64,000 nt of DNA from Sulfitobacter mediterraneus (GTDB taxonomy: Bacteria; Pseudomonadota; Alphaproteobacteria; Rhodobacterales; Rhodobacteraceae), in the NCBI RefSeq assembly GCF_016801775.1, contig NZ_CP069007.1, positions 1 to 64,000 of the forward strand, given 5' to 3'. A model generated the notes under the pieces. That model did not search any database, was not told the DNA's origin, and was given only the letters and a program-made list of their open reading frames with translations. A program made the position numbers and the translations under genes. Within the stretch, counting starts at the first letter, position 1; each line of letters starts with the position of its first letter. Positions 49,729 to 64,000 of the stretch are shown here, piece after piece.

Positions 49729-50895
49729 CTACTGCAAATCGTTGAAGAACCTTTGCATCCGGTCCATCGCCTCCCGCAGCACATCCATGTCGGCGCAACC
49801 AAAGCACACCCGCAGATGCCCTTCGCCCGCATCACCATAAAAGCTGCCTGCCTCGACCACCACACCGGTTGCCGCCAAGAGCATGTCGGCGCAGTCTTGT
49901 GAGGTCAGGCCGGTGGCGGTGATGTCGGGGAAGGCGTAGATCGTCCCCTCCACCGGGGCGCAGGTCACGCCGGGCATTTGGTTCAGCCGCGAGACAACCA
50001 GATCGCGGCGTTCCCGGTCGCGATCGACCATGCCTTGCAAGATTGCGGGGTCTCCTGTGAGGGCGGCCAAAGCACCGTGCTGCACAAAGGTGTTCACATG
50101 GGTCACTTCGTTGGTGGTGATTTTCATCATTGGCCCAATTAGAGACTGATCTGCGGCGATATAACCGAGACGCCAGCCGTCCATGGCATAGGCTTTCGTG
50201 AAGGCAAACATGGAGATTGTCCGCTCCTTCATGCCGGGTAGGGAAGCGATAGAAATATGTGCGGCGTTGTCATAGGTGATCTCTTCATAGACCTCGTCAG
50301 AAAGGACCAGCAGATCGTATTCCTGCGCGAGATCCGCGATGATTTGCAATTCAGCGCGGGTATAGACCCGGCCTGTAGGATTGCAGGGGTTGATCAGCGC
50401 AATCACCTTGGTCGCTGCGGTGATATGTGGCTCTAACAAAGTACGATTGATGGCAAATCCGTTTGCAGCATCCAAGGGTGCGATGGTGACTTTGGCGCCT
50501 GCAAGCTCTGCCTTTCCGATATGCTGGGGATAATAGGGGGCGAGCAAAAGCGCCTCATCGCCCGCATCCAGAAAGGCCATAAAGGCGGCAAAGGAGGCCT
50601 GTGTCAGACCATTGGTCACGATCACCTCATCGGCGGTGATATCCATGGCATTCTGGCGGCGCAATTTTTCCGCGATGGCGTCGCGCAGTTCGGGAATGCC
50701 TTGCAGGTCGGAGTAGTGCACATGACCCGCCTGCAGCGCGGCGATGGTGGCGTCTTTGATGTGTTGGGGGGTGTCTTCTGCGGGCATGCCCAATTCGAGA
50801 TGGATCAGATCACCTTTCATCTGGACGGCCTTGGCAAACATGCCAAAGTTTTTGGGTGAGGTTTCTGTGATCCGGCGGGCAGGGCGGATGGGCAT
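49729..50895 (-). CDS. Class I/II aminotransferase (fold type I)
   Basis: I start at the ATG at 50895, with AAGGAA 5 nt upstream; an earlier in-frame ATG at 50910 lacks a ribosome binding site. The 388-residue PLP enzyme has VIALINPCNPTGRVYTRAEL, VLSDEVYEEITYD and the PLP Lys in SMFAFTKAYAMDGWRLGY. It resembles aspartate/aromatic aminotransferases of subgroup I-gamma. The donor and acceptor cannot be read from sequence. It contains one copy of the dispersed motif (50138-50151). Confidence 0.86.
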   Translation of the reverse strand: MPIRPARRITETSPKNFGMFAKAVQMKGDLIHLELGMPAEDTPQHIKDATIAALQAGHVHYSDLQGIPELRDAIAEKLRRQNAMDITADEVIVTNGLTQASFAAFMAFLDAGDEALLLAPYYPQHIGKAELAGAKVTIAPLDAANGFAINRTLLEPHITAATKVIALINPCNPTGRVYTRAELQIIADLAQEYDLLVLSDEVYEEITYDNAAHISIASLPGMKERTISMFAFTKAYAMDGWRLGYIAADQSLIGPMMKITTNEVTHVNTFVQHGALAALTGDPAILQGMVDRDRERRDLVVSRLNQMPGVTCAPVEGTIYAFPDITATGLTSQDCADMLLAATGVVVEAGSFYGDAGEGHLRVCFGCADMDVLREAMDRMQRFFNDLQ

Positions 50896-50986
50896 GGGCG
50901 TTCCTTGCATCGAAATTTATATGCGTTTACATTTAAATCTGCCTAACCTGCCATTGCGCAGAAGGCCACCATAAAAGGGGATCATC

Positions 50987-51712
50987 ATGGGTAGGATTGC
51001 GGTTGTCACCGGTGCGGCGGGCGGCATGGGCCGTGCGATTGTTGCAAAGCTGATCGCGGATGGCATGCATGTTATCGGGCTGGATCTGGACGGTGCTGCA
51101 CTGGCCGAGATGGAAGCGGAGGAGGGATTTGAAGGGATTGCAACAGATCTGACAGACCCAGACGCCATTTCGGCAGCTTTTGAAAAAATTGCAGCGGATC
51201 ATGGGGGTGTTGATGCGCTGGTGAACAACGCTGGCACCTGTTTCATGTCGGAGTTTCCGGACATACCCGTGGCGGAATTCGAAAAGCAGATGGCGCTGAA
51301 CTTCTCGGGTGCATTTCATTGTTGCCAGGCGGCGATCAAGCTGATGGAAGGCCGTGACGGGGTGCGCAAGATCGTCAATATCAGCTCAAACGGGGCGTAT
51401 AATTTCGATGCTTTCGATCCGCCGCATTATCGTGCTTCCAAGGCGGCCTTGGATACCTTGACCAAAGATCTGGCGCGGCGGTTCGCGACGGATAAAATCG
51501 CGGTCAATTCGATTGCGCCAGCGATGACCGAAACGCCGCTGTTTAATGTGGTGAGCGAGGACGTGCTGGCAGAGGCGATTGCGCAAATGCCGCATGGACG
51601 GGCGATGCAACCTTCGGAAATTGCGGCTTGGGTCGGGTTTCTGATCTCGCCCGCGGGGGATGTGTCCAGCGGCAATGTGATTATCCTGAACCAGGGGCGC
51701 GATGTGCGTTGA
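50987..51712 (+). CDS. Short-chain dehydrogenase/reductase
   Basis: A 241-residue Rossmann oxidoreductase. The cofactor motif TGAAGGMG is at residues 8-15, with the D of LDLD after beta-2 suggesting NAD preference. NNAG is near 80, the catalytic Ser in NISS near 132, and Y148-x3-K152. Divergent from the aminotransferase at 49729 over a 91-bp gap and convergent with the hydrolase at 51777. The substrate is unknown. Confidence 0.88.
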   Translation: MGRIAVVTGAAGGMGRAIVAKLIADGMHVIGLDLDGAALAEMEAEEGFEGIATDLTDPDAISAAFEKIAADHGGVDALVNNAGTCFMSEFPDIPVAEFEKQMALNFSGAFHCCQAAIKLMEGRDGVRKIVNISSNGAYNFDAFDPPHYRASKAALDTLTKDLARRFATDKIAVNSIAPAMTETPLFNVVSEDVLAEAIAQMPHGRAMQPSEIAAWVGFLISPAGDVSSGNVIILNQGRDVR

Positions 51713-51727
51713 TTTCTGCTGCCGAAA

Positions 51728-51755
51728 TTGCAGAATTTTTTTCAAAATTCTGCAA
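51728..51755. terminator. Bidirectional terminator hairpin
   Basis: TTGCAGAATTTT and AAAATTCTGCAA form a perfect 12-bp stem with a 4-nt loop, between the convergent SDR and hydrolase genes. T-rich sequence is present on both sides of the stem. Confidence 0.72.
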
Positions 51756-51776
51756 GATTTTCTGAGAAAAATCACC

Positions 51777-52535
51777 TCAATCAAACCATTCCGGCGCTTT
51801 TTTGAGGGTTGGCCATTGTTCGGGGCTGTGGCCGTAGATGACCAGCGCGCCGCGTTCTGATGCCAGTTTCATCAGCCGGTCGCCATGGTGGATGGCCAGA
51901 TCGTCATCCCATGATCCGGCAAATTTCTCGTCAATCTCGGAGGCGCGGCTGATTGCATCGGAGGTGAGCAGAACCCAGCCTGTTTGCGGCAATTGCACCA
52001 TAAAGGCCAGTTGGCCGGGGGCATGACCGGGGCAGAGCAAGACCTCAAATCCGGGGCCAAGATTCATATCCGACCGCACCAGATGATAGTCGCGATCAGG
52101 CCAGTCCATCATCTGTTTTCCGGACCAATACAGCGGGCGGGGCAGGGCGCGTTCGGCGGCGGAAATCAGGATCGGGGCATGGGGAAAACCGGCCATATCG
52201 CCAACGTGGTCGATGTGGGTATGACTTTGGATCATCAGGGTGACATCGGATTTGGCCAGCCCCAGTTTGGCCAGTTGCGGGCCGGGCATGTTTTCGGGGG
52301 TCACGGACAGAACGCGGCCAAAGCTGCCCAGTTCGTCCTCGGCGGTGGCGGCCTCTGCATCGTGGGCGTATTTTTCGGGAAAGCCGGTGTCGATCAACAC
52401 CACTTCGCCAGCGTCGGTTTCCACCACAAAGCCGCAGATTCCGATGGTGCGCGGGCCGGAATGGACCTCGAACAACCCGTAATCGAGCACAGCGAGGCGT
52501 TTCGGTTTGCCCTTCAGCGTGACTTGGCTTTTCAT
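51777..52535 (-). CDS. Metallo-beta-lactamase-fold hydrolase
   Basis: I start at the ATG at 52535, with a GGGG-rich RBS upstream; a longer frame has no support. The 252-residue protein has the metal-binding motif H105-x-H107-x-D109-H110 in SHTHIDHVGD, a second His in LCPGHAPGQ and the Asp in LTSDAI. It looks like the lactonase/N-acyl homoserine lactonase-like branch. Its start is only 39 bp from the divergent aminotransferase start. Confidence 0.86.
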   Translation of the reverse strand: MKSQVTLKGKPKRLAVLDYGLFEVHSGPRTIGICGFVVETDAGEVVLIDTGFPEKYAHDAEAATAEDELGSFGRVLSVTPENMPGPQLAKLGLAKSDVTLMIQSHTHIDHVGDMAGFPHAPILISAAERALPRPLYWSGKQMMDWPDRDYHLVRSDMNLGPGFEVLLCPGHAPGQLAFMVQLPQTGWVLLTSDAISRASEIDEKFAGSWDDDLAIHHGDRLMKLASERGALVIYGHSPEQWPTLKKAPEWFD

Positions 52536-52574
52536 GTGGCGATCCCCCTTGGGGCCATAAGCAAAGGCGGCGCA

Positions 52575-53696
52575 ATGAAAGTCAAGATTCACACCCTGTT
52601 TCAATACCTGTTGGAAACAACAGATGCGGAGCCGGAGGCGATTGTCGGGTTCTCCTTGGCGGAATCGCCCAAGCTGGGGGAGTTCATTGCGGATCTTGAT
52701 CCGGACTTGCCGTTGGATTGGAACAACCGGGATTTTCGCGGGTTGCCCGAATTGCGGGACCATGTTCTGGCGCAGGCAGGGTTGAGCGGGCTTTGTTCGG
52801 CCGCGGATGTGTTGATCACAGCGGGTGCGGCGGAGGCGAATTATCTCGCGGTGATGCAGCTTTTGCAGCCGGGGGACGAGATCGTGATCGAAACGCCGGG
52901 TTGGCCGCAGGCGGAGGTGCTGGCCAAGGCGATCGGGGCCGAGGTGGTCAAGGTACATCGGCAGGAGGCAGATGGCTGGCATTTGCCGCTGGACCGGGTT
53001 GCGGAGGCGGTGACGGACAAAACCAAGATGATTTTCATCACCAATCCAAACAATCCCACGGGCGATTTACTGAACGCGGATGAACTGGCGGAATTGGCGC
53101 GGATCGCGGGGCGCGTTGGTGCGTGGCTGTTGGTGGATGAGGTCTATGCGGGGCTGGAATGGGAGGGCAGTCGCGCGCCGTCGATTGCGGGAATGTATGA
53201 ACGCGGGATTACTACGGGATCGGTGAGCAAGGCCTTGGGGTTGCAGGGGCTGCGGACGGGCTGGTTGATCTGCCGCGATCCTGAGTTGGTGATGGATGCG
53301 GTGATCCTGCGGGAGAATTCCAGCGAGATCATGAACATCATGGGCGAGGTGATTGCCGAAGTCGCGCTGCGCCCGGATCGCTATGGCGCTGCGATGGACA
53401 AGGCGCGGCGCGAAAGTGCGGCCAATCTGGCCAAGATGGACGCGTGGGTTTCGGCGCAATCCGGGCTGTCCTGGATCAAACCGCGTGCGGGATTGATCGG
53501 GCTGGGGCGGCTGCCCGAAGGGGTTGACAGTGATGCCTTTGCCAAGCGGCTGTTGGCGGAGCCATATCGCACATTCCTGCTGCCGGGCAGTGCATATGAG
53601 CAACCCAATCATATCCGGCTGGGGGTTGGTGGCGGCGCGGCCGTGAACCTTATGGAGGGGCTCGATCGGTTGGGGCGTGCTTTGGCTGAATATTGA
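52575..53696 (+). CDS. Class I/II aminotransferase
   Basis: A 373-residue fold type I PLP enzyme starting MKVKIHTLFQYLLETTDAEPE. Motifs: MIFITNPNNPTGDLLNADEL, LLVDEVYAGLEWEG and the PLP Lys in TTGSVSKALGLQGLRTGW. Start at the ATG at 52575, without a clear Shine-Dalgarno; the divergent hydrolase starts 39 bp away. It is followed by a FitAB toxin-antitoxin locus whose -35 box begins inside the end of this gene. Confidence 0.85.
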   Translation: MKVKIHTLFQYLLETTDAEPEAIVGFSLAESPKLGEFIADLDPDLPLDWNNRDFRGLPELRDHVLAQAGLSGLCSAADVLITAGAAEANYLAVMQLLQPGDEIVIETPGWPQAEVLAKAIGAEVVKVHRQEADGWHLPLDRVAEAVTDKTKMIFITNPNNPTGDLLNADELAELARIAGRVGAWLLVDEVYAGLEWEGSRAPSIAGMYERGITTGSVSKALGLQGLRTGWLICRDPELVMDAVILRENSSEIMNIMGEVIAEVALRPDRYGAAMDKARRESAANLAKMDAWVSAQSGLSWIKPRAGLIGLGRLPEGVDSDAFAKRLLAEPYRTFLLPGSAYEQPNHIRLGVGGGAAVNLMEGLDRLGRALAEY

Positions 53697-53750: not shown

Positions 53751-54008
53751 ATGCCGACCCTGACCATTCGCAATATCGCGCCGGAGGTGCATCAGGCCCT
53801 ACGGGAGCAGGCGGCGGCGCATGGCCGGTCGATGGAGGCCGAGGTGCGGGCGTTGCTCAGCAATCACACGGGCGCGGCGCAGCCCAAAGAGGATGGCGCG
53901 GCGTTTTATGATCGGTTGCGGGCGCGGTTTGCCGGAGTAGAGAGCGATCTGGATTTGCCAGAGCGGCGCCAGCCCCGAGATACGCCTGACTTCGGCCCTG
54001 CGGGATGA
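53751..54008 (+). CDS. fitA: FitA-type antitoxin
   Basis: An 85-residue DNA-binding protein with an N-terminal ribbon-helix-helix (MPTLTIRNIAPEVHQALREQAAAHGRSMEAEVRALL), the form shared by FitA and other VapB-class antitoxins. The C-terminal half neutralises the PIN toxin. Its stop overlaps the toxin start (ATGA). Toxin-antitoxin pairs stabilise plasmids, which fits the replicon. Confidence 0.87.
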   Translation: MPTLTIRNIAPEVHQALREQAAAHGRSMEAEVRALLSNHTGAAQPKEDGAAFYDRLRARFAGVESDLDLPERRQPRDTPDFGPAG

Positions 54009-54424
54009 TCCTGCTCGATACCAACATCATCTCGGAAATCATGCGCCCCGAACCGGCCCCGGCCGTGCGGGACTGGTTTGCGCGGCAAACTCCGGCGGAT
54101 TTGTATTTGAGCACGGTCACGCTGGGCGAGATCGGGTATGGTCTGCACCGATTGCCAGAAGGGCGCAGGCGGGATGGATTGATGCGGCAGGCGGACCGGC
54201 TGTTTGCCGAAGATTTTGCCGGAAGGGTGCTGAGCTTTGATGAAAGTGCTGCGGTGATCTATGGCCCGTTAGCTGCCGGGGCACGGCAGGCGGGGTGGAA
54301 CATGGCGGTGGAGGATCTGATGATTGCGGCCATTGCACTGGCGCATGGCGCAGCGGTCGCCACCCGCAATCTAAGGGATTTTCGGCACAGCGGTCTGTCT
54401 GTTCAGAACCCCTTTGAAGGTTAG
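54005..54424 (+). CDS. fitB: FitB/VapC-type PIN-domain toxin
   Basis: A 139-residue PIN ribonuclease. Acidic metal-binding residues are D5 (MILLDTNIISEIMRP), E42 (VTLGEIGYG), D104 (AVEDLMIAA) and probably D125 (TRNLRDF). The LDTNIISE and TRNLRDF motifs are closest to FitB. It cleaves RNA when freed from the antitoxin. Coupled to fitA. Confidence 0.88.
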   Translation: MILLDTNIISEIMRPEPAPAVRDWFARQTPADLYLSTVTLGEIGYGLHRLPEGRRRDGLMRQADRLFAEDFAGRVLSFDESAAVIYGPLAAGARQAGWNMAVEDLMIAAIALAHGAAVATRNLRDFRHSGLSVQNPFEG

Positions 54425-54434
54425 GGTTAAGGCC

Positions 54435-55244
54435 CTAGTCCACAAACGCCTTTTCGACGACAAAAGTATCGGGGCGGTTATTGGCCCCTTCGACCAATCC
54501 AAACCCTTCCAGCGCCGCCTTGGTGTCGCGCAACATGTCCATTGATCCGCAGATCATGCCGCGGTCTGTGGCGGGTGCGATGGGCGGCAGGCCCAGATCG
54601 TCAAACACCTTGCCAGACGCCATAAGATCGGTGATGCGGCCCATAAAGGGATAATCCTCGCGGGTGGTGGTGCAATAGTGGCGCAGCCCTTGGGCAAATT
54701 CACCGACCAGCGGGTCGTCCTTGACCGCCGCGACCAGTTCCTTGCCATAGGTCAGCTCGGCCACCTCGCGGCAGGTGTGGGTCAGGATCACCTCGTCGAA
54801 TTTCTCGTAAGTTTCAGGGTCGCGGATCAGGCTGGCGAAGGGCGCAATGCCGGTGCCGGTGGCAAACATCCAGAGCCGTTTGCCCGGAAGCAAGGCATCA
54901 TTGACCAGGGTGCCTGTGGGCTTGCGCCGCATCAAAACTGAATCGCCCACCTTGATCTTTTGCAGATGTTCGGTGAGCGGTCCGCCCGGCACTTTGATCG
55001 AGTAGAACTCGATCTCTTCATCCCAACTGGGCGAGGCGATGGAATAGGCGCGGAACACCGGGCGTTCGGCGTTGGGCAGGCCGATCATCACAAATTCGCC
55101 GGAGCGAAAGCGAAAGCTGTCCGGGCGGGTGATGCGGAATTTGAACAGGCGGTCGGTGTAATGCTGAACGGATGTGACGGTCTGGGCAAAGACCCCTGCG
55201 GGGATCGGAAACGCGCCTTGGGCGGCGGTTGCATCTAGGGACAT
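54435..55244 (-). CDS. fpr: Ferredoxin-NADP reductase
   Basis: I start at the ATG at 55244 (CGGAG about 8 nt upstream); a longer frame has no RBS. The 269-residue flavoprotein has the FAD motif FRAYSIAS, the C-terminal NADP motifs GTGIAPFASLI and MICGSMDML, and ends in EKAFVD. It moves electrons between NADPH and ferredoxin (EC 1.18.1.2). It is divergent from enamidase with a shared operator, so it probably supplies reduced ferredoxin to the 6-hydroxynicotinate reductase encoded at 59783. Confidence 0.9.
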   Translation of the reverse strand: MSLDATAAQGAFPIPAGVFAQTVTSVQHYTDRLFKFRITRPDSFRFRSGEFVMIGLPNAERPVFRAYSIASPSWDEEIEFYSIKVPGGPLTEHLQKIKVGDSVLMRRKPTGTLVNDALLPGKRLWMFATGTGIAPFASLIRDPETYEKFDEVILTHTCREVAELTYGKELVAAVKDDPLVGEFAQGLRHYCTTTREDYPFMGRITDLMASGKVFDDLGLPPIAPATDRGMICGSMDMLRDTKAALEGFGLVEGANNRPDTFVVEKAFVD

Positions 55245-55261
55245 TCTCACGCTCCGATAAT

Positions 55262-55277
55262 CATTTGTATACAAATG
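55262..55277. promoter_or_regulatory. Palindromic operator before fpr
   Basis: CATTTGTATACAAATG is a perfect 16-bp palindrome, 18 bp before the fpr start. Its core TTTGTATACAAA matches TTNGTATACNAA, found again at 55365 on the enamidase side. It overlaps a TATACA that could be the fpr -10 box. Confidence 0.68.
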
Positions 55278-55343
55278 AAATAGCGAAGCAAAAAGCGGCT
55301 GTCAACACGGGTCTGATTTCGGCAGGGCAGGGGATAATCGCCC

Positions 55344-55376
55344 TTGACGGCGAGCCGCGAAATATTCGTATACTAA
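55344..55376 (+). promoter_or_regulatory. Enamidase promoter with GTATAC operator
   Basis: TTGACG (55344) and TATACT (55369) could be -35 and -10 boxes with a 19-bp spacer. TTCGTATACTAA (55365-55376) matches the same TTNGTATACNAA pattern as the fpr operator and would cover the -10. Both divergent genes thus seem to share one repressor. Confidence 0.55.
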
Positions 55377-55405
55377 CAATAAGAACGCATGTTGGAGGAC
55401 GGTTC

Positions 55406-56572
55406 ATGGACAAGTTGGTGATCAGGAATATCGGGCAGATCCTGTCGGGAAAACTCGAAGAGCCGATCTTTGACGGGGATTGTCTGATTGCGGTTGATGG
55501 CAAGATTTCCGCATGGGGCAAGGAAAAGGATCTTGATTGCGAGGGCGCCACGACGACGGTGGATGCCCATGGCGTGACGCTGGCCCCCGGTTTGATCGAC
55601 AGCCACATTCACCCCGTGGTCGGGGATTACACCCCGCGCCAGCAACAGCTGCACTGGATCGACAGCACGCTGCACGGCGGTGTGACCACGCTTATTTCAG
55701 CGGGTGAGGTGCATATGCCGGGACGGCCCAAAGATGTGGTTGGCCTCAAGGCGATGGCGATTGCCTCACAGCGCTGGTACGAGAATTTCCGCCCCTCCGG
55801 GGTCAAGGTGCATGCCGGTGCGCCGGTGATCGAACACGGCATGGTCGAGGAAGATTTCAAGGATCTGGCCGATGCGGGGGTCAAACTGTTGGGCGAGGTG
55901 GGTCTTGGCACGGTCAAGGATGGCAAGACCGCGCAGCAGATGGTCTCTTGGGCGCGTAAATACGGCATTCAAAGCACGATCCACACGGGCGGGCCGTCGA
56001 TCCCCGGATCAGGGTTGATTGATGCCGATATGGTGCTGGAAACCGGAACGGATGTTGTGGGCCATATCAACGGGGGGCATTCGGCCTTGCCGGATGATCA
56101 GATCATCTGCCTGTGCGAAAGCTGCAAGGCGGCGCTTGAGATTGTGCACAACGGCAATGAACGCGCGGCGCTGCTGACGCTGAACACGGCGCGGGAATTG
56201 GGCAAGCTGGACCAGGTGATCCTTGGCACGGACGGTCCTGCGGGATCGGGGGTGCAGCCGCTGGGCATTTTGCGGATGATTGCGATGTTGTCCTCCTTGG
56301 GGAATGTGCCGGCGGAGCTGGCCTTCTGCTTTGGCAATGGCAACACATCACGGCAACGCAAACTGGATACCGGATTGATAGAGGTCGGCATGTGCGCCGA
56401 TTTTGTACTGCTGGATCAGGCCCAACATGCGCCGGGCAAGAATATGCTGGAATCGGTGCAACTGGGTAATCTGCCGGGGGTTGGCATGACCATCATCGAC
56501 GGTGTGGTGCGCAGCGAACGCAGCCGCAACACGCCACCGGCGGATAGATTGCCGGAGGTCGTTTCGGCCTAA
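55406..56572 (+). CDS. ena: Enamidase-like amidohydrolase
   Basis: I start at the ATG at 55406, with GGAGG 7 nt upstream. The 388-residue protein matches enamidase of Eubacterium barkeri (about 385 residues) along its length. Shared features are the metal motif H67-x-H69 in APGLIDSHIHP, DYTPRQQQLHWIDSTLHGGVTTLISAG and MPGRPKDVVGLKAMA. Further on come GEVGLGTVKDG, STIHTGGPSIPGS, VGHINGG and LGTDGPAGSGVQPLGILR. Enamidase (EC 3.5.2.18) opens 1,4,5,6-tetrahydro-6-oxonicotinate to 2-formylglutarate and ammonia. Its stop overlaps the stop of the convergent marR. Confidence 0.87.
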   Translation: MDKLVIRNIGQILSGKLEEPIFDGDCLIAVDGKISAWGKEKDLDCEGATTTVDAHGVTLAPGLIDSHIHPVVGDYTPRQQQLHWIDSTLHGGVTTLISAGEVHMPGRPKDVVGLKAMAIASQRWYENFRPSGVKVHAGAPVIEHGMVEEDFKDLADAGVKLLGEVGLGTVKDGKTAQQMVSWARKYGIQSTIHTGGPSIPGSGLIDADMVLETGTDVVGHINGGHSALPDDQIICLCESCKAALEIVHNGNERAALLTLNTARELGKLDQVILGTDGPAGSGVQPLGILRMIAMLSSLGNVPAELAFCFGNGNTSRQRKLDTGLIEVGMCADFVLLDQAQHAPGKNMLESVQLGNLPGVGMTIIDGVVRSERSRNTPPADRLPEVVSA

Positions 56573-57009
56573 GAGATCTTGCGCAACAGGTTGGCCAGCG
56601 TGCGCCGTTCCTGCGCGGTGAGCGGGGCAAGGGTGTCTTCGGTGATGATCAGGCCGGTCTGTTTGAGATCGTCAATCAGATCCGCGCCCTTCTCCGTCAG
56701 CGAGATGATGGAGCGGCGTTTGTCGACCTGATCGGGGCGCGATTGCATCAGCCCCTTGGCCTTGAGCCGGTCCACCACACCTTTGATCGTTGCCACATCC
56801 ATCGCGGCGAGACGCCCCAGATGGTTTTGCGACACATCCCCCTGTTCGGCCACACGCAGCAAGGTGGTGAACTGGGTCGGCGTGAGGTTTTGCACCGCGT
56901 GTTTTTGAAAGATCGCCGCGTGCCGCTGGCTGGCCAGTCGAAGCAGATAGCCCACCTGATCTTCGAGGATATAGGCGGTCTCGCTGGGGGCAGGGGCGGT
57001 TCGGGTCAT
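56569..57009 (-). CDS. MarR-family transcriptional regulator
   Basis: A 146-residue winged-helix repressor. The helix-turn-helix is VSQNHLGRLAAMDVATIKGVVDRLKAKGLM, followed by the wing KRRSIISLTEKGADLI. It belongs to a branch often placed beside aromatic or N-heterocycle catabolic genes. It is divergent from the gene at 57185; the inverted repeat TGTTGC-N10-GCAACA (57079-57100) between them may be its operator. Confidence 0.88.
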   Translation of the reverse strand: MTRTAPAPSETAYILEDQVGYLLRLASQRHAAIFQKHAVQNLTPTQFTTLLRVAEQGDVSQNHLGRLAAMDVATIKGVVDRLKAKGLMQSRPDQVDKRRSIISLTEKGADLIDDLKQTGLIITEDTLAPLTAQERRTLANLLRKIS

Positions 57010-57078
57010 GAGCGTTCATACCGCAGGCAGGAAGTGATGCACAACGGGGAATGAAGTGGATTTGACAACCCCCGCATG

Positions 57079-57100
57079 TGTTGCCATATAAACCGCAACA
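57079..57100. promoter_or_regulatory. Inverted repeat in the marR / reductase intergenic region
   Basis: TGTTGC-N10-GCAACA is a perfect 6-bp inverted repeat in the divergent gap. TTGACA (57062) and TATAAA (57087) nearby look like a promoter for the plus-strand gene. Confidence 0.5.
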
Positions 57101-57184
57101 GAGGAGTGCCCTGCCAGTGATCAAGTAAGTACCTGCAAGAACCGGCCCATTCGGCCAAGTTGGTATTTATTCACGGAGCATTCC

Positions 57185-57712
57185 ATGCATCCCATTATTT
57201 ATGACGTTGCCGTCTCTGTTGACGGTTATATTTCTGGTCCTGACGGGGACATCAGCCGCTTTGCCCAAGAGGGAGAAGTGGTGGAAGACTACGCTGCGCG
57301 GTTGCAAACCTATGGCGCGGCAATCATGGGGCGGGGCACCTATGAGTTTGGCTATCGCTTTGGTCTGGAGCCGGGGCAAAACCCTTATCCCCATATGCAG
57401 ACCTATGTGTTCTCAAAGCAGATTGATCTGCCCGATCAAAGCGACGTGACCCAGATGCAGGGGGATTTGAAAGCGCATCTGGATGATCTCAAAGCGACCG
57501 CAGGCGGGCCGGTTTATCTGTGTGGGGGCGGGGCCTTTGCCGGGGCGTTGCTGGCGCTTGGGGCGATTGATCTGCTGCGCCTGAAGCGTGCGCCGATCGT
57601 GTTGGGCGGGGGTGTGCCGCTGTTTGGCGATGGCGCAGCGGCGCCAGATCTGAAGCATCGGTCAACCAAGGTCTATGAGGGCGGATACCTGTTTCAGGAA
57701 TTTGCCCTGTGA
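57185..57712 (+). CDS. Dihydrofolate reductase-like protein (RibD C-terminal family)
   Basis: A 175-residue protein of the RibD-C/DHFR fold. IIYDVAVSVDGYISGPDGD at the start, IMGRGTYEFG near 48 and VYLCGGGAFAGALLALGAIDLL near 110 are family features. Members reduce pterin or pyrimidine-like compounds with NADPH; the substrate here is unknown. It could be an accessory reductase of the N-heterocycle cluster. A terminator follows. Confidence 0.82.
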   Translation: MHPIIYDVAVSVDGYISGPDGDISRFAQEGEVVEDYAARLQTYGAAIMGRGTYEFGYRFGLEPGQNPYPHMQTYVFSKQIDLPDQSDVTQMQGDLKAHLDDLKATAGGPVYLCGGGAFAGALLALGAIDLLRLKRAPIVLGGGVPLFGDGAAAPDLKHRSTKVYEGGYLFQEFAL

Positions 57713-57733
57713 GCCCTGCCACATGAGCAGGAT

Positions 57734-57758
57734 GGCGGGCAGGTTTAACCTGCCCGCC
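57734..57758 (+). terminator. Bidirectional terminator
   Basis: GGCGGGCAGG and CCTGCCCGCC form a perfect 10-bp GC-rich stem with a TTTAA loop, between two convergent genes. It is followed by TGATTTCATTT. Confidence 0.75.
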
Positions 57759-57767
57759 TGATTTCAT

Positions 57768-58352
57768 TTAGCGCAACCCGTCTTTGCCCTCGGCCTCGTC
57801 ATGGGTCAAACCGCCCACGCGGGGCAGGGGGCGGCCGCTGTCGGTGACGGCCACGGCGACCATGATCTCATTGGCGCGGGGGGCGTCGTTGAGGCAAACC
57901 TCGATTCCGTCAAAATGGCTGCGCACATAGGCGGCGTCCTTGTGGCCCAGAGGCACATCGAGCACCTGACCGGGGCTGCCCATCTTTTTCGAAGAGGCGA
58001 CCAGAGCTGCGCCTTTTTCCACGGCGGCCCGGAGGGGTGCGCCAAGTTTGGGATGCAGGATCGCGGCGGCATGTTCCAGCTCACCGTTTTCGCCGACCAT
58101 GGCGGATTTGCCATAGCTTTGCGCTTGCGCCGGTGTGATGCCAAGGGCCGCGACACATTTGTCGCCCAGAAGCGCGCCCAGTTCTGCGCCGATGTCCATC
58201 AGGGCACTGAGGTCTTCCTGATAGACCCCGGCAAAGGGGTTTTCGATCACCGCCACGGCGACGGCCTTGCGGGTAGGCGGCGCAATGTTGCGGCCCATTT
58301 CGCTGTGGGTTTCCTCGACGTTGACGGCAATTTTGCGGATCTTGGCGGTCAT
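57768..58352 (-). CDS. DUF1185 (amino acid synthesis) family protein, copy 1
   Basis: A 194-residue protein of the PF06684 family. Features: RKIAVNVEETHSEMG near the start, VIENPFAGVYQEDLSALMD, GKSAMVGENGELEHAAAILHPKLG and AYVRSHFDGIEVCLNDAPRANEIMV. The family has known structures but no firm function. It overlaps its paralogue by 4 bp (ATGA), and the pair may form a hetero-oligomer. Part of the minus-strand operon with hnr. Confidence 0.82.
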   Translation of the reverse strand: MTAKIRKIAVNVEETHSEMGRNIAPPTRKAVAVAVIENPFAGVYQEDLSALMDIGAELGALLGDKCVAALGITPAQAQSYGKSAMVGENGELEHAAAILHPKLGAPLRAAVEKGAALVASSKKMGSPGQVLDVPLGHKDAAYVRSHFDGIEVCLNDAPRANEIMVAVAVTDSGRPLPRVGGLTHDEAEGKDGLR

Positions 58353-58930
58353 CTCAATCCGTCCTCCCCTTTGATGTCTGCGGCGGCCAATCCGCCAGCG
58401 CGATTGTGAATGCGTGCGCCCGTGGTCATCACCAGAATGAGCATCATCTCATCGGCGCGCGGCGCGTCGTTGAGGCCCACTTCCATGCTGTCGAAATGGC
58501 TGCGCACATAGGATGCGTTGATATGGGTGATCGGCACATCAAGCCGTGCGCCAACGCCGCCCACCTTTTTGGTGGAGGGCACGATGGCGTTAGATCCATT
58601 CAGCAGCTCGCGCATCGCGTAACCGCCGGGAGCGTGCCAAAGTGCGCCATGCTCCAACTCTCCATCTGCGCCGATCAGGGCAGCCTTGCCGTAACCTTCG
58701 ATCTGGTCGGCACCGCCAAGCATCTCGACCAGCTTTTCCGCCATCGACAGGCCGAGCGGTTTGAGATCCTCCATAAAGGGTTGGATGTCCGGTTCGTACC
58801 GTCCGGCGAAGGGGTTCTTGATCACCGCCATTACAGCGGCGCGTTTGAGGGATTTGGCAGGCACTGGGCCGCCCTCGTGAAAGATCTCTTCGATCACGCG
58901 GCTGGTTTTGCGCAGAATAACGTCAGGCAT
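58349..58930 (-). CDS. DUF1185 (amino acid synthesis) family protein, copy 2
   Basis: A 193-residue paralogue of the next gene downstream: VIKNPFAGRYEPDIQPFMEDL, GYGKAALIGADGELEHGALWH, and YVRSHFDSMEVGLNDAPRADEMM line up with copy 1. Overlaps the UPF0280 gene upstream by 8 bp and copy 1 downstream by 4 bp, so all are translated from one message. Confidence 0.82.
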   Translation of the reverse strand: MPDVILRKTSRVIEEIFHEGGPVPAKSLKRAAVMAVIKNPFAGRYEPDIQPFMEDLKPLGLSMAEKLVEMLGGADQIEGYGKAALIGADGELEHGALWHAPGGYAMRELLNGSNAIVPSTKKVGGVGARLDVPITHINASYVRSHFDSMEVGLNDAPRADEMMLILVMTTGARIHNRAGGLAAADIKGEDGLR

Positions 58931-59783
58931 GTTCAGCGGTCCTTAAGCTGAGGGAAGCGAGGGGCGCGGTGCAGCTTTGGCTGTCCCCTTGCAGAAACAG
59001 GGCTGCACCAAGAATGCGGCCTTTTTGAATCAGATCATCGGCGCGTTTGCGCCCCTGTTCAAGCGCCAAGCGGCGGTCTGTTGCGGGCAACGCGCTGCAA
59101 TGGGTCACCACGGGCAGATCGCCAAGGTCGCTGTTGTCATCAAGGCTGCTGGCCGGGGCGCGGGTGATCGCGGGATGGTCGGGCAGGTCCACGGCATTGG
59201 CGATCATCGTGGCGGCAACGTCCGCTTCGGCGGCGGTGCGGGCCAGCACGGTGACGCTGTCTGCGATGCCAAGGCTGAGACTGCGGCCATGGCGACCACT
59301 GGTGGCGATGCCGCGAATGGGCGTGTCTTGTGTGATTGTGATGCGGCCCAGATCACTGCCGTCATGGCCGGACATGGCAGATGTGAAATGCTGTCCTTTG
59401 GTCAGATGTAGGGCGATGTCGCCGCCGTTGTTCACATAGGCACGGGTCAGGGGCGTGGCGGCGCAGATGGCGTGCAGGACGTGATCGGCCACAGCACCGG
59501 CAACGGCAGCCATCGAGGTGACGAAACTCTCTGCCGCATAAGGATAGGCGGCAAGGTGCATCTGGCAGGCGATGGACCCGTTGGGCGGAGGACTGTCCGT
59601 GCTGAGCGGTTGGCGCAACGCAGGCAGTTCCCGCACCAGTTCCTCCAGCACAGTGGCAAAGCGGGCCTGCGCGGCGGCAAAGGCGATTTTGCGATCACCC
59701 TCGGCCCCGATGATCAGGTCTATCGGTCCGTGTTGCAGGTGCAGACGGGTGCCACCCGGCAAAAGATGAGCCTGCGGGCCCAT
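58923..59783 (-). CDS. UPF0280 family protein
   Basis: A 286-residue protein of the UPF0280 group, which is distantly related to the flavin transferase ApbE. Features: AAVAGAVADHVLHAICA, AYVNNGGDIALHLTKGQ and GIATSGRHGRSLSLGIADSVTVLA, the last resembling the GxATSG region of ApbE. A role in flavin attachment or in handling a pathway intermediate is possible but unproved. Its start coincides with the last base of the hnr stop. Confidence 0.8.
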   Translation of the reverse strand: MGPQAHLLPGGTRLHLQHGPIDLIIGAEGDRKIAFAAAQARFATVLEELVRELPALRQPLSTDSPPPNGSIACQMHLAAYPYAAESFVTSMAAVAGAVADHVLHAICAATPLTRAYVNNGGDIALHLTKGQHFTSAMSGHDGSDLGRITITQDTPIRGIATSGRHGRSLSLGIADSVTVLARTAAEADVAATMIANAVDLPDHPAITRAPASSLDDNSDLGDLPVVTHCSALPATDRRLALEQGRKRADDLIQKGRILGAALFLQGDSQSCTAPLASLSLRTAEHA

Positions 59784-61270
59784 CAGGACTTGTCGCCCTT
59801 GGCCCAGCGATAATTGGTATGGGCCATCGGATCATGTCCGTGCGCCTCTGGCTTGACCTTTCGGGTGACGCCGGTGACGGAGGACACGGGTTTGACCTCG
59901 CTCATGTGGCCGCCAAGGGTGGCGTAGTCACTGACCCGCAGGGAAAATTCAATCGGGGCGACCAGGGCAGGGGTCGGCACGTAGCCAAAGGATCCGGTGG
60001 GCATGTCCATCACATCGACCATCACCGTGATACCGCCGCCGGGCCAGACATAGGCCTCCGCGCCGCCGCAGGACACATGGGTCAGCGCGTCTTTGACTGA
60101 ACGGGTCAGGCGCACGGGGTTTTCTGTGACCCCCGCCCGCAGGCTGCCGCCCGCGCCGCCCATGAACAGCACCGAACAGATCGAGGGTTCGCAGTTTTCC
60201 GCGATCAGATCGCAAGAGGCCCGCAAGGCATCCGGCATCGGTGCGGGTTGTGGCACCAGATCGGCGTCCAGTTCGTAATAGCCTGATTGTTCGCCCGTGG
60301 TTGAAACCATCAGAAGCCGCAGTCCGGCCCATGCCACCTTGGGGTTGAAGGGACCAAGGATCGCAAGCGGATCTTCGATATCGGTGCCGCCCCAGCCAGT
60401 GCCGGGCTCGGCCACCTGAAAGTAACGTCCCGGCGTGGAGCGGCGGCCAAGGATCTTGATGCCGGTGGGCGGCACATCGAGTTCCTTGCCTGCCTGATGT
60501 TCGGACAACACCCCGGTGATATGGTCATCGACTACCACAACGTCATCGGCATGAGACAGCCATTGTTTGGCAAACATCCCGATGGTGGCAGAGCCGCAGC
60601 CCACCCGCATCAGCTTTTCCGGCAGCCCGTTGATCACCGGCGCTTTGCCGGCCTCAACGACGATGGTGGTGGCGTGATCATCCTCTCCGATGATCATTTC
60701 CACCGGTTCGCGGTTGCACAGTTTCAAAAGGGCATCGCAGGTCACGCGGCCTTCTTTCTTGGTGCCGCCAGTCAGGTGTTCGACCCCGCCCAGAGAAAGC
60801 ATCTTGGACCCGTATTCAGAGGTCATCACATGGCCAATCGGCTCTCCATCCACCCGCACCACATCGCGTTCGTGGCCAATGTGGCGGTCGGTGTCGATCT
60901 TCACCTTGACGCCGCAGTAGGAAAAGATGCCCTCGGTCACAACGGTGACCATATCGACGCCTTCAACGTCCTGACTGACAATAAAGGGCGCGGGTTTGTA
61001 ATCGGGATAGGTGGTGCCAGCGCCGACAGCGGTGACAAAGGGGCGGTCGCCTTTGACGATATTGCCATCCCATTCATCGGCGGGTGTGTCCGACAGGAAC
61101 GGTACCAGCTTTTGATCGGTGCCTTCGATGATGGTCAGCGCATCAAGGCGCACCAGATCACCGCCGTGGTTGGCATAGCGGTCACAGGCACCGATCTTGC
61201 CATCAGCGATGTAGCACATCACCGGGCAGGCGTCGCAGCGGATCTTTTCGGGTTTGGCGCGTTCAGTCAT
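59783..61270 (-). CDS. hnr: 6-hydroxynicotinate reductase-like protein
   Basis: I start at the ATG at 61270 (MTERAKPEKIRCDACPVMCY), just inside the end of the molybdenum hydroxylase gene. The 495-residue protein has a Cys cluster (C12, C15, C19, C29) near the N terminus for an iron-sulfur centre. Repeated Gly-rich segments follow (GVGAGTTYPDYKPAPF, VGCGSATIGMFAKQWL, MGGAGGSLRAGVTENPVRL). In Eubacterium barkeri this enzyme (EC 1.3.7.1) reduces 6-hydroxynicotinate with ferredoxin to the substrate of enamidase. Its operon partner and the fpr and ena genes nearby support that step here. Confidence 0.82.
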   Translation of the reverse strand: MTERAKPEKIRCDACPVMCYIADGKIGACDRYANHGGDLVRLDALTIIEGTDQKLVPFLSDTPADEWDGNIVKGDRPFVTAVGAGTTYPDYKPAPFIVSQDVEGVDMVTVVTEGIFSYCGVKVKIDTDRHIGHERDVVRVDGEPIGHVMTSEYGSKMLSLGGVEHLTGGTKKEGRVTCDALLKLCNREPVEMIIGEDDHATTIVVEAGKAPVINGLPEKLMRVGCGSATIGMFAKQWLSHADDVVVVDDHITGVLSEHQAGKELDVPPTGIKILGRRSTPGRYFQVAEPGTGWGGTDIEDPLAILGPFNPKVAWAGLRLLMVSTTGEQSGYYELDADLVPQPAPMPDALRASCDLIAENCEPSICSVLFMGGAGGSLRAGVTENPVRLTRSVKDALTHVSCGGAEAYVWPGGGITVMVDVMDMPTGSFGYVPTPALVAPIEFSLRVSDYATLGGHMSEVKPVSSVTGVTRKVKPEAHGHDPMAHTNYRWAKGDKS

Positions 61271-64000
61271 GGGATTTGGCCTTGAGTGCAGCGCGGACGC
61301 GGGCGGGGGTTGCGGGAACCTGTGTGATGCGGACACCGGTGGCATTGTGGATCGCATTCAGGATCGCGGGGGCGGTCGGGATCAACACATGTTCGCCCAG
61401 CCCCTTGGCCCCGTATGGCCCGTGGGCGTCCGGCTCTTCGATGATCAGGGTTTCAACGGGGGGCATATCGCCAATGGTCGGGATCAGGTAATCATGCAGG
61501 TTCTCGGTGCGCCCCGGAATGTATTCTTCCATCAAAGCCATGCCGAGACCCTGCGCAATGCCGCCTTGCACCTGACCTTCAACCAGCATCGGATTGATCG
61601 CCTTGCCCACATCATGGGCGGCAACAAAGTGCAGCGGCTTGACGGTGCCAAAGGCAGTATCGACCTCGACCACCACCAGATGCGCGGCATAGCCAAATTG
61701 CGCATAGGGTGCACCCTGGCCGTTTTCATCCAGCGGTTTGGTGGGCGGATCATAGGTTTCCTCGGAGCGCAGCACATAGCCTTCGCCATCGGCGGAGAGG
61801 GTCGATAGCGCAAAGCTGTGGCGGCCCGCCTTGTCAGTGGCGTGGATCATGCCATCTGCGATTTCAAGCTGGGCGTCTTGGGCGACATTCATCCGCTCAA
61901 GGATCTGCGCGCGCAATGCCGCGCCTGACAATCGCGCGGCATTGCCCGAGACATAGGTCTGCCGCGAGGCGGAGGTTTTGCCCGCATCCGGTGTCACGTC
62001 CGTGTCGGCGCCGATCAGGGTCAGGGCATGGACCGGCACGCCAAGGGCGGTGGCGAACAATTGGCTGATCACCGTGTTGGCGCCTTGCCCGATGTCCATT
62101 GCGCCTTGGTGCAGCATGATCGTGCCATCGGCGCGGATGCCCGCCTTGATGGTTGAGGGATTGGGCAGCGAGGTGTTGCCACAACCGTACCAGCCCGCCG
62201 CAATGCCAACACCGCGTTTCAGAGTGGTATTGGCCGCGTTGAATGCCGCCGCCGCACCGCGTTCCTTGGCCCATGCGGGGCGCAAGGCCTCAAGACAGGC
62301 GCGAATGCCAACCCCTTGGGAAAACACCTGTCCGCAGACCGTGGGCGCGTTGTTTTCCAATGCGTTGAGGATGCGGAACTCCAGCGGATCGAGGCCAAGC
62401 CTGTCTGCCAGCACGTCAAACAGGCTTTCTTGTGCAATCGCGGCCTGAGGCACGCCAAAACCGCGAAAGGCACCCGACGGCGGGTTGTTGGTATGGATGC
62501 CCTTGGATTCGGCGCGGTAGTTGGGGATGCTGTAGGGGCCGGACGCATGCACCGGTACCCGGTTGGCCACGGTCGGCCCCCAACTGGCATAGGCGCCGGT
62601 GTCAAATTCGCCATAGAAGTCATAGCCGGTGATCTTGCCGGTGCGGTCCGCGCCGATGCTCAGGCGGATGTCGGAAGGGTGGCGCTTGGTGGTGCTTTGC
62701 ATCGATTCACTGCGCGAATAGGTCAGGCGCACGGGTTTGCCGGTCTTGATCGCGGCCATCGCCAGATAGGGCTGCACGGAAATGTCCAGCTTGGAGCCAA
62801 AGCCGCCGCCCACGCCGGTTGGCACAATGCGGATGCGGCTGCGATCCCAGCCAAGGATGATCTCAAGCGCCTCAAGATCCATGACGGGGGCCTGGGTGCA
62901 GGCGTAGACCTCGACACGGTCCCCATCCACACGGGCAAAGCCGGCTTCAGGCTCAATATAGGCATGTTCGACAAAACCGCTTTGGTAGTGGCCTGACACG
63001 GTGACATCCGCAGAGGCCAGCGCGGATTTGGCATCGCCGCAAGCGACAAAGCCGCCGCACATCACGTTCATGTCCCGGCCTTTGTGCAGCTCTGCGGCTT
63101 GATCCGTTTGGGCGCTGTGAATGTCGGTGCTGGCGGGGCGTTCCTCCCATGTCAGGGGGAAAGTGGCGGGATCGAAGTTGCGGATCATCTCCGGCGTTCC
63201 GATCACGGCGGCAACGGCTTCACCCCGAAAGCGGGTTTCGCCCTCGGCAAAGACGGGTTGATCCATGAACTGCGGAATGACGCCAAACACGTTGCGGCCT
63301 GTGATATCGGCAGCGGTCAGCACGGCCTCAACGCCAGTTCTGTTGGCAACAAATCCCTCCAGATCGCCAAAGGTGAAACCGGCGCGAGGGAAGGGCGAAC
63401 GGATCACCAAAATCTCAAGCGTGCCGGGCGGCGCGATATCGTCGCCGAAGGCCTCGCGCCCCGCAACTTTGTCCGCGCCATCGAGGCGGCGGATTGCATC
63501 ACCTGCATGACCGGGTGCATCGCGGGTGAGGGCAGGGGCACCCATCACGGCGTCGATGATCTTGCGATATCCGGTGCAGCGGCACAGCACCCCGCCAAGC
63601 GCATCTTGCACCTGCGTTTCCGTCGGCTGCGGATTGGCCCGCAGCAGCGCCACGGCTGAGGCCATCATCCCCGGTGTGCAGATCCCGCATTGCGCCGCGC
63701 CGTGGTTTTGAAAGCTCTCGCCCAGGGCATGGGCAATCGGATCATTGGCATGCAGGCCGGCGGGGGTTTCCACCGCGCGCCCCGCGGCCTGTTGCGCGGG
63801 CATCAAACAGGCGCAGACGGGGTCGCCGTCCACCAACACGGTGCAGGCGCCGCAATCGCCCGCGTTGCAGCCGATTTTCACATCCCGCGCACCAAGCTGT
63901 TCGCGCAGCATCTCTGACAGGCGTTGGCCGGGGGCGGGCTGGCATTGGGCGTGCTGCCCGTTGAGGGTAAAGGTCGTGGCGGAAAGGTCGGTGGGTTTGT
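61263..64000 (-). CDS. Molybdenum hydroxylase, fused [2Fe-2S] and Mo subunits (cut by window edge)
   Basis: The frame is open to the last base, so the start lies beyond the window; 911 residues are visible. The N-terminal part is a xanthine dehydrogenase-type ferredoxin domain with Cys in CNAGDCGACTVLVDG and CGICTPGM / CRCTGYRK. The rest is the molybdopterin subunit (GVGGGFGSKLDISVQPYLAM, AFRGFGVPQAAIAQESLFD, GAMDIGQGANTVISQL, VEGQVQGGIAQGLGMALMEEY). No FAD domain is fused. By context it would hydroxylate nicotinate at C6, but other N-heterocycles are possible. Confidence 0.88.
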   Translation of the reverse strand, partial: KPTDLSATTFTLNGQHAQCQPAPGQRLSEMLREQLGARDVKIGCNAGDCGACTVLVDGDPVCACLMPAQQAAGRAVETPAGLHANDPIAHALGESFQNHGAAQCGICTPGMMASAVALLRANPQPTETQVQDALGGVLCRCTGYRKIIDAVMGAPALTRDAPGHAGDAIRRLDGADKVAGREAFGDDIAPPGTLEILVIRSPFPRAGFTFGDLEGFVANRTGVEAVLTAADITGRNVFGVIPQFMDQPVFAEGETRFRGEAVAAVIGTPEMIRNFDPATFPLTWEERPASTDIHSAQTDQAAELHKGRDMNVMCGGFVACGDAKSALASADVTVSGHYQSGFVEHAYIEPEAGFARVDGDRVEVYACTQAPVMDLEALEIILGWDRSRIRIVPTGVGGGFGSKLDISVQPYLAMAAIKTGKPVRLTYSRSESMQSTTKRHPSDIRLSIGADRTGKITGYDFYGEFDTGAYASWGPTVANRVPVHASGPYSIPNYRAESKGIHTNNPPSGAFRGFGVPQAAIAQESLFDVLADRLGLDPLEFRILNALENNAPTVCGQVFSQGVGIRACLEALRPAWAKERGAAAAFNAANTTLKRGVGIAAGWYGCGNTSLPNPSTIKAGIRADGTIMLHQGAMDIGQGANTVISQLFATALGVPVHALTLIGADTDVTPDAGKTSASRQTYVSGNAARLSGAALRAQILERMNVAQDAQLEIADGMIHATDKAGRHSFALSTLSADGEGYVLRSEETYDPPTKPLDENGQGAPYAQFGYAAHLVVVEVDTAFGTVKPLHFVAAHDVGKAINPMLVEGQVQGGIAQGLGMALMEEYIPGRTENLHDYLIPTIGDMPPVETLIIEEPDAHGPYGAKGLGEHVLIPTAPAILNAIHNATGVRITQVPATPARVRAALKAKSHD

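Follow-up and report, generated by a model that had tools for sequence, protein, structure and literature searches.

Main

We analysed the first 64,000 bases (the window) of a plasmid-sized contig of 92,113 bases from the marine bacterium Sulfitobacter mediterraneus (NZ_CP069007.1). The right end of the window carries a reductive nicotinate-type gene cluster in the wide sense, that is, genes for a molybdenum hydroxylase, a 6-hydroxynicotinate reductase-like protein (Hnr) and an enamidase together (Table 1). The operon on the minus strand runs from the flavin adenine dinucleotide (FAD) subunit of the hydroxylase, a separate gene just beyond position 64000, through the fused Fe-S/molybdopterin subunit, Hnr and a UPF0280 protein to two DUF1185 copies, a and b. 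One intergenic stretch separates the enamidase gene from a divergent gene for a ferredoxin/flavodoxin-NADP reductase (Fpr), and a MarR gene is convergent with enamidase. The genes named in a first-pass annotation of this DNA are confirmed at their positions. The cluster stretch is no artefact, because it recurs with 98.4% DNA identity in a plasmid of 92,112 bases from Sulfitobacter sp. M368 and with 90.6% in two S. mediterraneus plasmids. New here is UPF0280 as the constant companion of Hnr: the genes that had looked extra carry the news, rather than the pathway in an aerobe.

Table 1 Features of the cluster in window coordinates.
Feature	Position	Strand	Evidence
Ferredoxin/flavodoxin-NADP reductase (Fpr-like)	54435..55244	-	FAD_binding_6 and NAD_binding_1 above Pfam cut-offs
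Operator-like palindrome TTTGTATACAAA in the Fpr-enamidase gap, core of a perfect palindrome of 18 bp	55264..55275	.	Palindrome scans of the window and related loci
Enamidase (amidohydrolase superfamily), proposed ring-opening step	55406..56572	+	2VUN, E=1.8e-105
MarR-family regulator, presumed cluster regulator	56569..57009	-	Pfam MarR and MarR_2 above cut-off
RibD_C-domain protein, local insertion	57185..57712	+	Pfam RibD_C, 68.7 bits (cut-off 24.1)
DUF1185/AA_synth copy b	57768..58352	-	PF06684, 238.4 bits (cut-off 27)
DUF1185/AA_synth copy a	58349..58930	-	PF06684, 237.6 bits (cut-off 27); PDB 3BYQ, E=1.5e-63
UPF0280 (COG2122) protein, proposed Hnr maturation factor	58923..59783	-	NF003322, 362.6 bits (cut-off 290)
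6-Hydroxynicotinate reductase-like protein (Hnr), 495 residues	59783..61270	-	Similarity to named relatives; nine cysteines
Fused [2Fe-2S]-molybdopterin hydroxylase subunit	61263..64000, continuing 7 bases past the window end	-	Fer2, Fer2_2, Ald_Xan_dh_C, MoCoBD_1 and MoCoBD_2 in one chain

Results

Among 385 alphaproteobacterial genomes, Hnr (E<=1e-30) is found in 68 and UPF0280 (E<=1e-10) in 68, and the two sets of genomes are identical. For the matches entered, the two genes lie within 200 bases of each other in 66 of the 68; in G194 the first UPF0280 piece, omitted from the distance count, adjoins Hnr, and in G231 the genes are on separate contigs. The same holds in 398 Pseudomonadota genomes, where Hnr and UPF0280 share an identical set of 32 genomes, 30 of them with the genes within 200 bases and three outside the Alphaproteobacteria. 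The two samples have five positive genomes in common, and the tallies by genus are 42/276 and 16/212. DUF1185 is tied to Hnr more loosely than UPF0280, being present in 59 of the 68 alphaproteobacterial Hnr genomes and in 22 genomes that have no Hnr. The UPF0280 search also responds, below the cut-off, in the archaeal controls M. jannaschii and M. acetivorans.

The neighbourhood was surveyed in 87 related loci, comprising the best 80 of at least 593 confirmed Hnr relatives on genome contigs and seven plasmid loci; a protein search with Hnr scored 8000 candidates, all of which matched (at least 8000). The sample is biased towards close relatives, with at least 8 kb on both sides in 63 of the 87 pieces, and all locus counts refer to the pieces read, some of which come from contigs that end within the locus. 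UPF0280 is present in 85 loci, about 4 kb away in four; it was not seen in L082, where 369 bases are left past Hnr, or in L086, which has ~10 kb on each side. DUF1185 is found in 82 loci (two or more copies in 69), the fused hydroxylase in 74, a MarR relative in 65, enamidase in 51, a substrate-binding protein in 45, HyuAB in 12 and NicB in nine. Only the S. mediterraneus locus has RibD_C. The first-pass annotation had set the DUF1185 pair, UPF0280 and the RibD-C reductase apart as additions to the pathway. By co-occurrence UPF0280 and DUF1185 belong to the core, and only the RibD_C protein is foreign; we judge it to lie outside the pathway, as a local extra. The cluster is common in marine Rhodobacterales.

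Nine cysteines of Hnr are invariant in 51 of 51 aligned rows. In the sources that name them, plasmid records included, its relatives are called '6-hydroxynicotinate reductase' or 'hypothetical protein', and no Pfam or NCBIfam family matches Hnr at E<=0.001, so that the name depends on chains of similarity. Separately, Hnr is split over two frames at G028:C1:2969811-2971261, with a UPF0280 gene still alongside, and a single stop codon is present in several further Hnr matches.

The nicotinate fermentation of the anaerobe Eubacterium barkeri, reportedly the subject of Alhapel 2006, shares with the present cluster an enamidase and an Hnr-type reductase. Its hydroxylase differs, having the molybdopterin part in two subunits and a separate Fe-S subunit (3HRD chain names), whereas the Fe-S and molybdopterin domains are fused here. 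The 3HRD chains (E. barkeri nicotinate dehydrogenase) are split and also score lower against our hydroxylase than 1DGJ, so the first-step enzyme belongs to the expected class without being the E. barkeri enzyme itself. The claim that the first three E. barkeri steps are reproduced holds for the gene set of hydroxylation, Hnr and enamidase and fails for the subunit architecture of the hydroxylase. The hydroxylases next to Hnr have at least two architectures, the fused form with an FAD subunit, as here, and a NicAB-like form.

The enamidase aligns without gaps to E. barkeri 2VUN over residues 1-385, with 168 of 385 identical (43.6%). Residues H67, H69, E164, H193, H220 and D276, which from knowledge of the superfamily we take to be the expected ligands of two metals, are conserved in all 57 aligned rows (the window, 2VUN and 55 relatives). 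Ring opening was surveyed in 107 loci, namely the 87, the window and 19 of 20 extra pieces; L107, which has HyuA too, was left out for its split Hnr. Enamidase is present in 57 loci, HyuA in 21 and both in none; the pieces read show neither in 29. HyuA (hydantoinase/oxoprolinase type, mostly with HyuB) replaces enamidase in L009-L013, L064-L066, L074, L081, L083, L085, L102, L105, L106, L108, L109, L111-L113 and L116. On an Hnr tree built by a quick method without bootstrap, 3 changes account for the enamidase/HyuA labels, compared with 18.7 and 18.5 for shuffled labels and with 0 of 500 shuffles as low, a clustering that near-copies inflate. By this tree, enamidase has been exchanged for HyuAB in relatives at least three times. 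HyuAB-type enzymes open lactams using ATP, so the ring attacked in HyuAB loci may be another one or more strongly reduced, and the exchange provides a handle on the substrate.

DUF1185 accompanies both types of ring-opening gene, occurring in all 57 enamidase loci and in 17 of the 21 with HyuA. Its fold is a variant of Bacillus chorismate mutase, with activity unknown according to the available part of PMC2954203. The family is also found in other heterocycle breakdown, with different partners and substrates: in the accessible text of PMC7913881 the DUF1185 homologue TgnF (trigonelline breakdown) is cited as stimulating an aldehyde oxidation, and for HcdD (7-hydroxycoumarin breakdown) the authors could demonstrate no effect.

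The Fpr-enamidase gap contains the perfect palindrome TCATTTGTATACAAATGA, ~20 bases before Fpr, and one-mismatch versions of its core precede the FAD subunit (contig position 64854) and a transporter operon to the right of the window (contig position 67153). In 80 related loci the core gives 49 sites, compared with 0-9 for 29 other palindromes of the same letters, and 44 of the 49 are near the 5' end of a recognised gene (from open frames, hence approximate) compared with 23.5% of random positions. These genes are the FAD subunit (15), enamidase (12), Fpr (8, in seven loci), MarR (6), Hnr (5), substrate-binding proteins (5) and HyuA (4, in four loci), some sites counting twice. A palindrome scan of the window alone is not significant. 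Given the enrichment in related loci and the sites before Fpr/enamidase, the hydroxylase-Hnr operon and the branched-chain amino acid (BCAA)-type transporter, these genes appear to form a single regulon. Its putative regulator is the MarR protein, as the presumed binder of the palindrome, and the palindrome offers a handle on regulation.

Discussion

Hnr-type clusters in aerobes had been reported by 2012, namely in Azorhizobium caulinodans ORS571, Bradyrhizobium japonicum, Rhodopseudomonas palustris HaA2 and strain SG-6C, which degrades nicotinate as sole carbon source and whose Hnr homologue is given at 42% (PMC3511419, available part). The novelty that the first-pass annotation saw in such a pathway in an aerobe is thereby lost. 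Like the present cluster, those clusters combine, as far as that text goes, an Hnr homologue in an aerobe with genes for the first three steps and a putative ATP-binding cassette (ABC) transporter. Two alphaproteobacterial genomes (7-8 Mb) hold NicAB, Hnr, UPF0280, DUF1185, ABC and MarR genes together, one of them also enamidase and Fpr, and we take their clusters to be of the same kind as those in PMC3511419. The present cluster differs from the soil-bacterium form in its fused Fe-S/molybdopterin subunit with an FAD subunit, compared with the NicAB-like pair in L097 and L114 (loci taken as that kind), in the interposed RibD-C gene, and in its marine host, where it sits on a plasmid-sized contig. 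The pathway represents one more version of an aerobic route already known, begun by a different enzyme.

As judged from sequence, the cluster is probably under MarR control and serves the breakdown of nicotinate or a closely related pyridine carboxylate by a marine alphaproteobacterium that is presumably aerobic, with UPF0280 as a dedicated maturation protein of Hnr. The ABC transporter would import the ring, the molybdenum hydroxylase would add oxygen adjacent to the ring nitrogen, and Hnr would reduce the resulting pyridone to a tetrahydro-oxo ring with electrons that may pass from NADPH through Fpr to an unlinked ferredoxin or flavodoxin. Enamidase would then open the ring to ammonia and 2-formylglutarate or an analogue, and the DUF1185 pair may work on the opened enamine or aldehyde. 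UPF0280 would be no pathway enzyme and would probably contribute the flavin or the Fe-S/sulfur part of Hnr.

The fold of UPF0280 is that of the ApbE superfamily (flavin transferases), and the motifs NxGGD, TSG and ADxxAT, which we take to be ApbE motifs, are present in 45-46 of 46 aligned UPF0280 rows. It shares both with the flavin transferases ApbE, Ftp and FmnB and differs from them in the catalytic site: those 46 rows hold no segment like HIIDPRTG, presumably the ApbE catalytic-histidine segment, and no invariant His. The available part of PMC12052999 describes a catalytic role of His257 in ApbE and the target motif D-x-x-[ST]-G-A-[ST] in the partner protein, and this motif occurs in 0 of 104 Hnr rows (pooled from three sets, repeats included). 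With the catalytic histidine and the target motif both absent, flavin attachment by UPF0280 is only a guess. We tentatively propose, with some hesitation, that UPF0280 is a dedicated cytosolic Hnr maturase, an ApbE-superfamily protein with an altered catalytic site that installs flavin or an adjacent sulfur/Fe-S part. In strict anaerobes, the assignment of UPF0280/COG2122 has so far lain between 'flavin transferase relative' and 'sulfur trafficking'; the one-to-one pairing of UPF0280 with Hnr gives this orphan family a two-gene system from presumed aerobes. If the proposal is right, the orphan COG2122 family would by extension serve to mature redox enzymes of the low-potential Fe-S kind, which would account both for its requirement in homocysteine synthesis (see below) and for the strict pairing with Hnr.

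Several observations weigh against the nicotinate-type pathway with UPF0280 as maturase, the absent histidine and target motif among them. The co-occurrence of Hnr and UPF0280 takes no account of relatedness among the genomes or of joint transfer of the whole cluster. Hnr owes its name to similarity chains rather than to direct alignment with E. barkeri Hnr, and its structure model is weak (predicted local distance difference test, pLDDT, 71.8) and finds no fold match. The best solved relatives of the hydroxylase are aldehyde oxidoreductases (1DGJ best, 1SIJ), and neither enamidase nor HyuAB was seen in 24 of the 87 loci, partly owing to contig ends. The palindrome, allowing up to one mismatch, has a site in 33 of 80 loci and none in 47, and genome-wide it is not unusual (six sites compared with ten for the reversed pattern as control). 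Finally, a second Fpr copy, 64% identical, is on the largest contig of the genome, and an Fpr relative is found in only 29 of the 87 loci.

It is rather unlikely, if still worth weighing, that the cluster applies the same chemistry to another ring, such as picolinate, isonicotinate or an N-methylated compound (trigonelline, homarine), hydroxylated next to the nitrogen, reduced by an Hnr relative and opened by an enamidase relative. The variety of hydroxylases beside Hnr and the ability of HyuAB to take over ring opening speak for this, as does a Rieske oxygenase in 18 of the 87 loci (for example L008:19883-20950); the S. pontiacus example, the one that was searched, is similar to dicamba O-demethylase DdmC, a hint that some relatives use methylated substrates. 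On the other side, the enamidase here matches its counterpart in the E. barkeri nicotinate pathway in length and in the putative ligands, and such a cluster is present in nicotinate-growing SG-6C, where the available part of PMC3511419 does not tie gene and growth by mutation.

As for UPF0280, a role in sulfur delivery, with sulfide or persulfide handling for the Fe-S clusters of Hnr and no flavin role, seems somewhat doubtful. The ApbE fold and motifs count against it, as does the covalently bound flavin that E. barkeri Hnr is said to carry (abstract of Alhapel 2006). In its favour are the nine invariant cysteines of Hnr, the missing histidine segment and target motif, and the relatives in Desulfovibrio and methanogens: D. 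vulgaris needs COG2122, together with DUF39 and NIL/ferredoxin proteins, to make homocysteine, and the protein from M. acetivorans has been described as one of sulfur trafficking (PMC5764234 and PMC12068725, available parts). In those systems the partners are DUF39 and NIL/ferredoxin proteins, whereas the partner here is Hnr in a catabolic cluster.

We consider it unlikely that Fpr is a duplicated housekeeping gene and a chance neighbour of enamidase, with the electrons for Hnr coming from elsewhere. The second genomic copy and the small share of loci with an Fpr relative would fit such a gene, whereas the palindrome just before Fpr and the sites near the 5' end of its relatives would not; several of these sites are shared with the divergent enamidase and are therefore not evidence for Fpr alone. 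The suggestion in the first-pass annotation that Fpr supplies the electrons is thus retained as likely, on the operator palindrome shared with enamidase and the 29 loci that have an Fpr relative. The best NCBIfam model for Fpr, NF008178, gives 126 bits against a model cut-off of 390, and the start was picked to match the length annotated in S. mediterraneus. That UPF0280 itself catalyses a pathway step, for example by isomerising or hydrolysing the reduced ring, is very unlikely, as UPF0280 tracks Hnr and stays while enamidase and HyuAB swap and the hydroxylase changes.

Genomic setting

To the right of the hydroxylase operon, a PCu(A)C-like copper chaperone and a functionally uncharacterised protein of 469 residues (L005 14917-17126; contig ~64.9-67.1 kb) precede the BCAA-type ABC transporter operon, all named after the S. 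mediterraneus record. On the other side, a VapC-type PIN toxin gene (window 54005-54424) ends 10 bases before the Fpr gene's 3' end; in S. mediterraneus, too, a VapC-family gene occupies this place, with CcdAB further along. Two pyridoxal phosphate (PLP)-dependent aminotransferases, a short-chain dehydrogenase/reductase (SDR) and a metallo-beta-lactamase (MBL)-fold hydrolase adjoin the cluster at 49729-53696 of the window; this arrangement is also present in S. mediterraneus and was not seen in a 33-kb S. pontiacus piece. The same contig carries FlgH-, FlgA- and FlgG-like open reading frames (L006 11631-13862; contig ~81.6-83.9 kb), recognised from reading of the sequence without a family scan.

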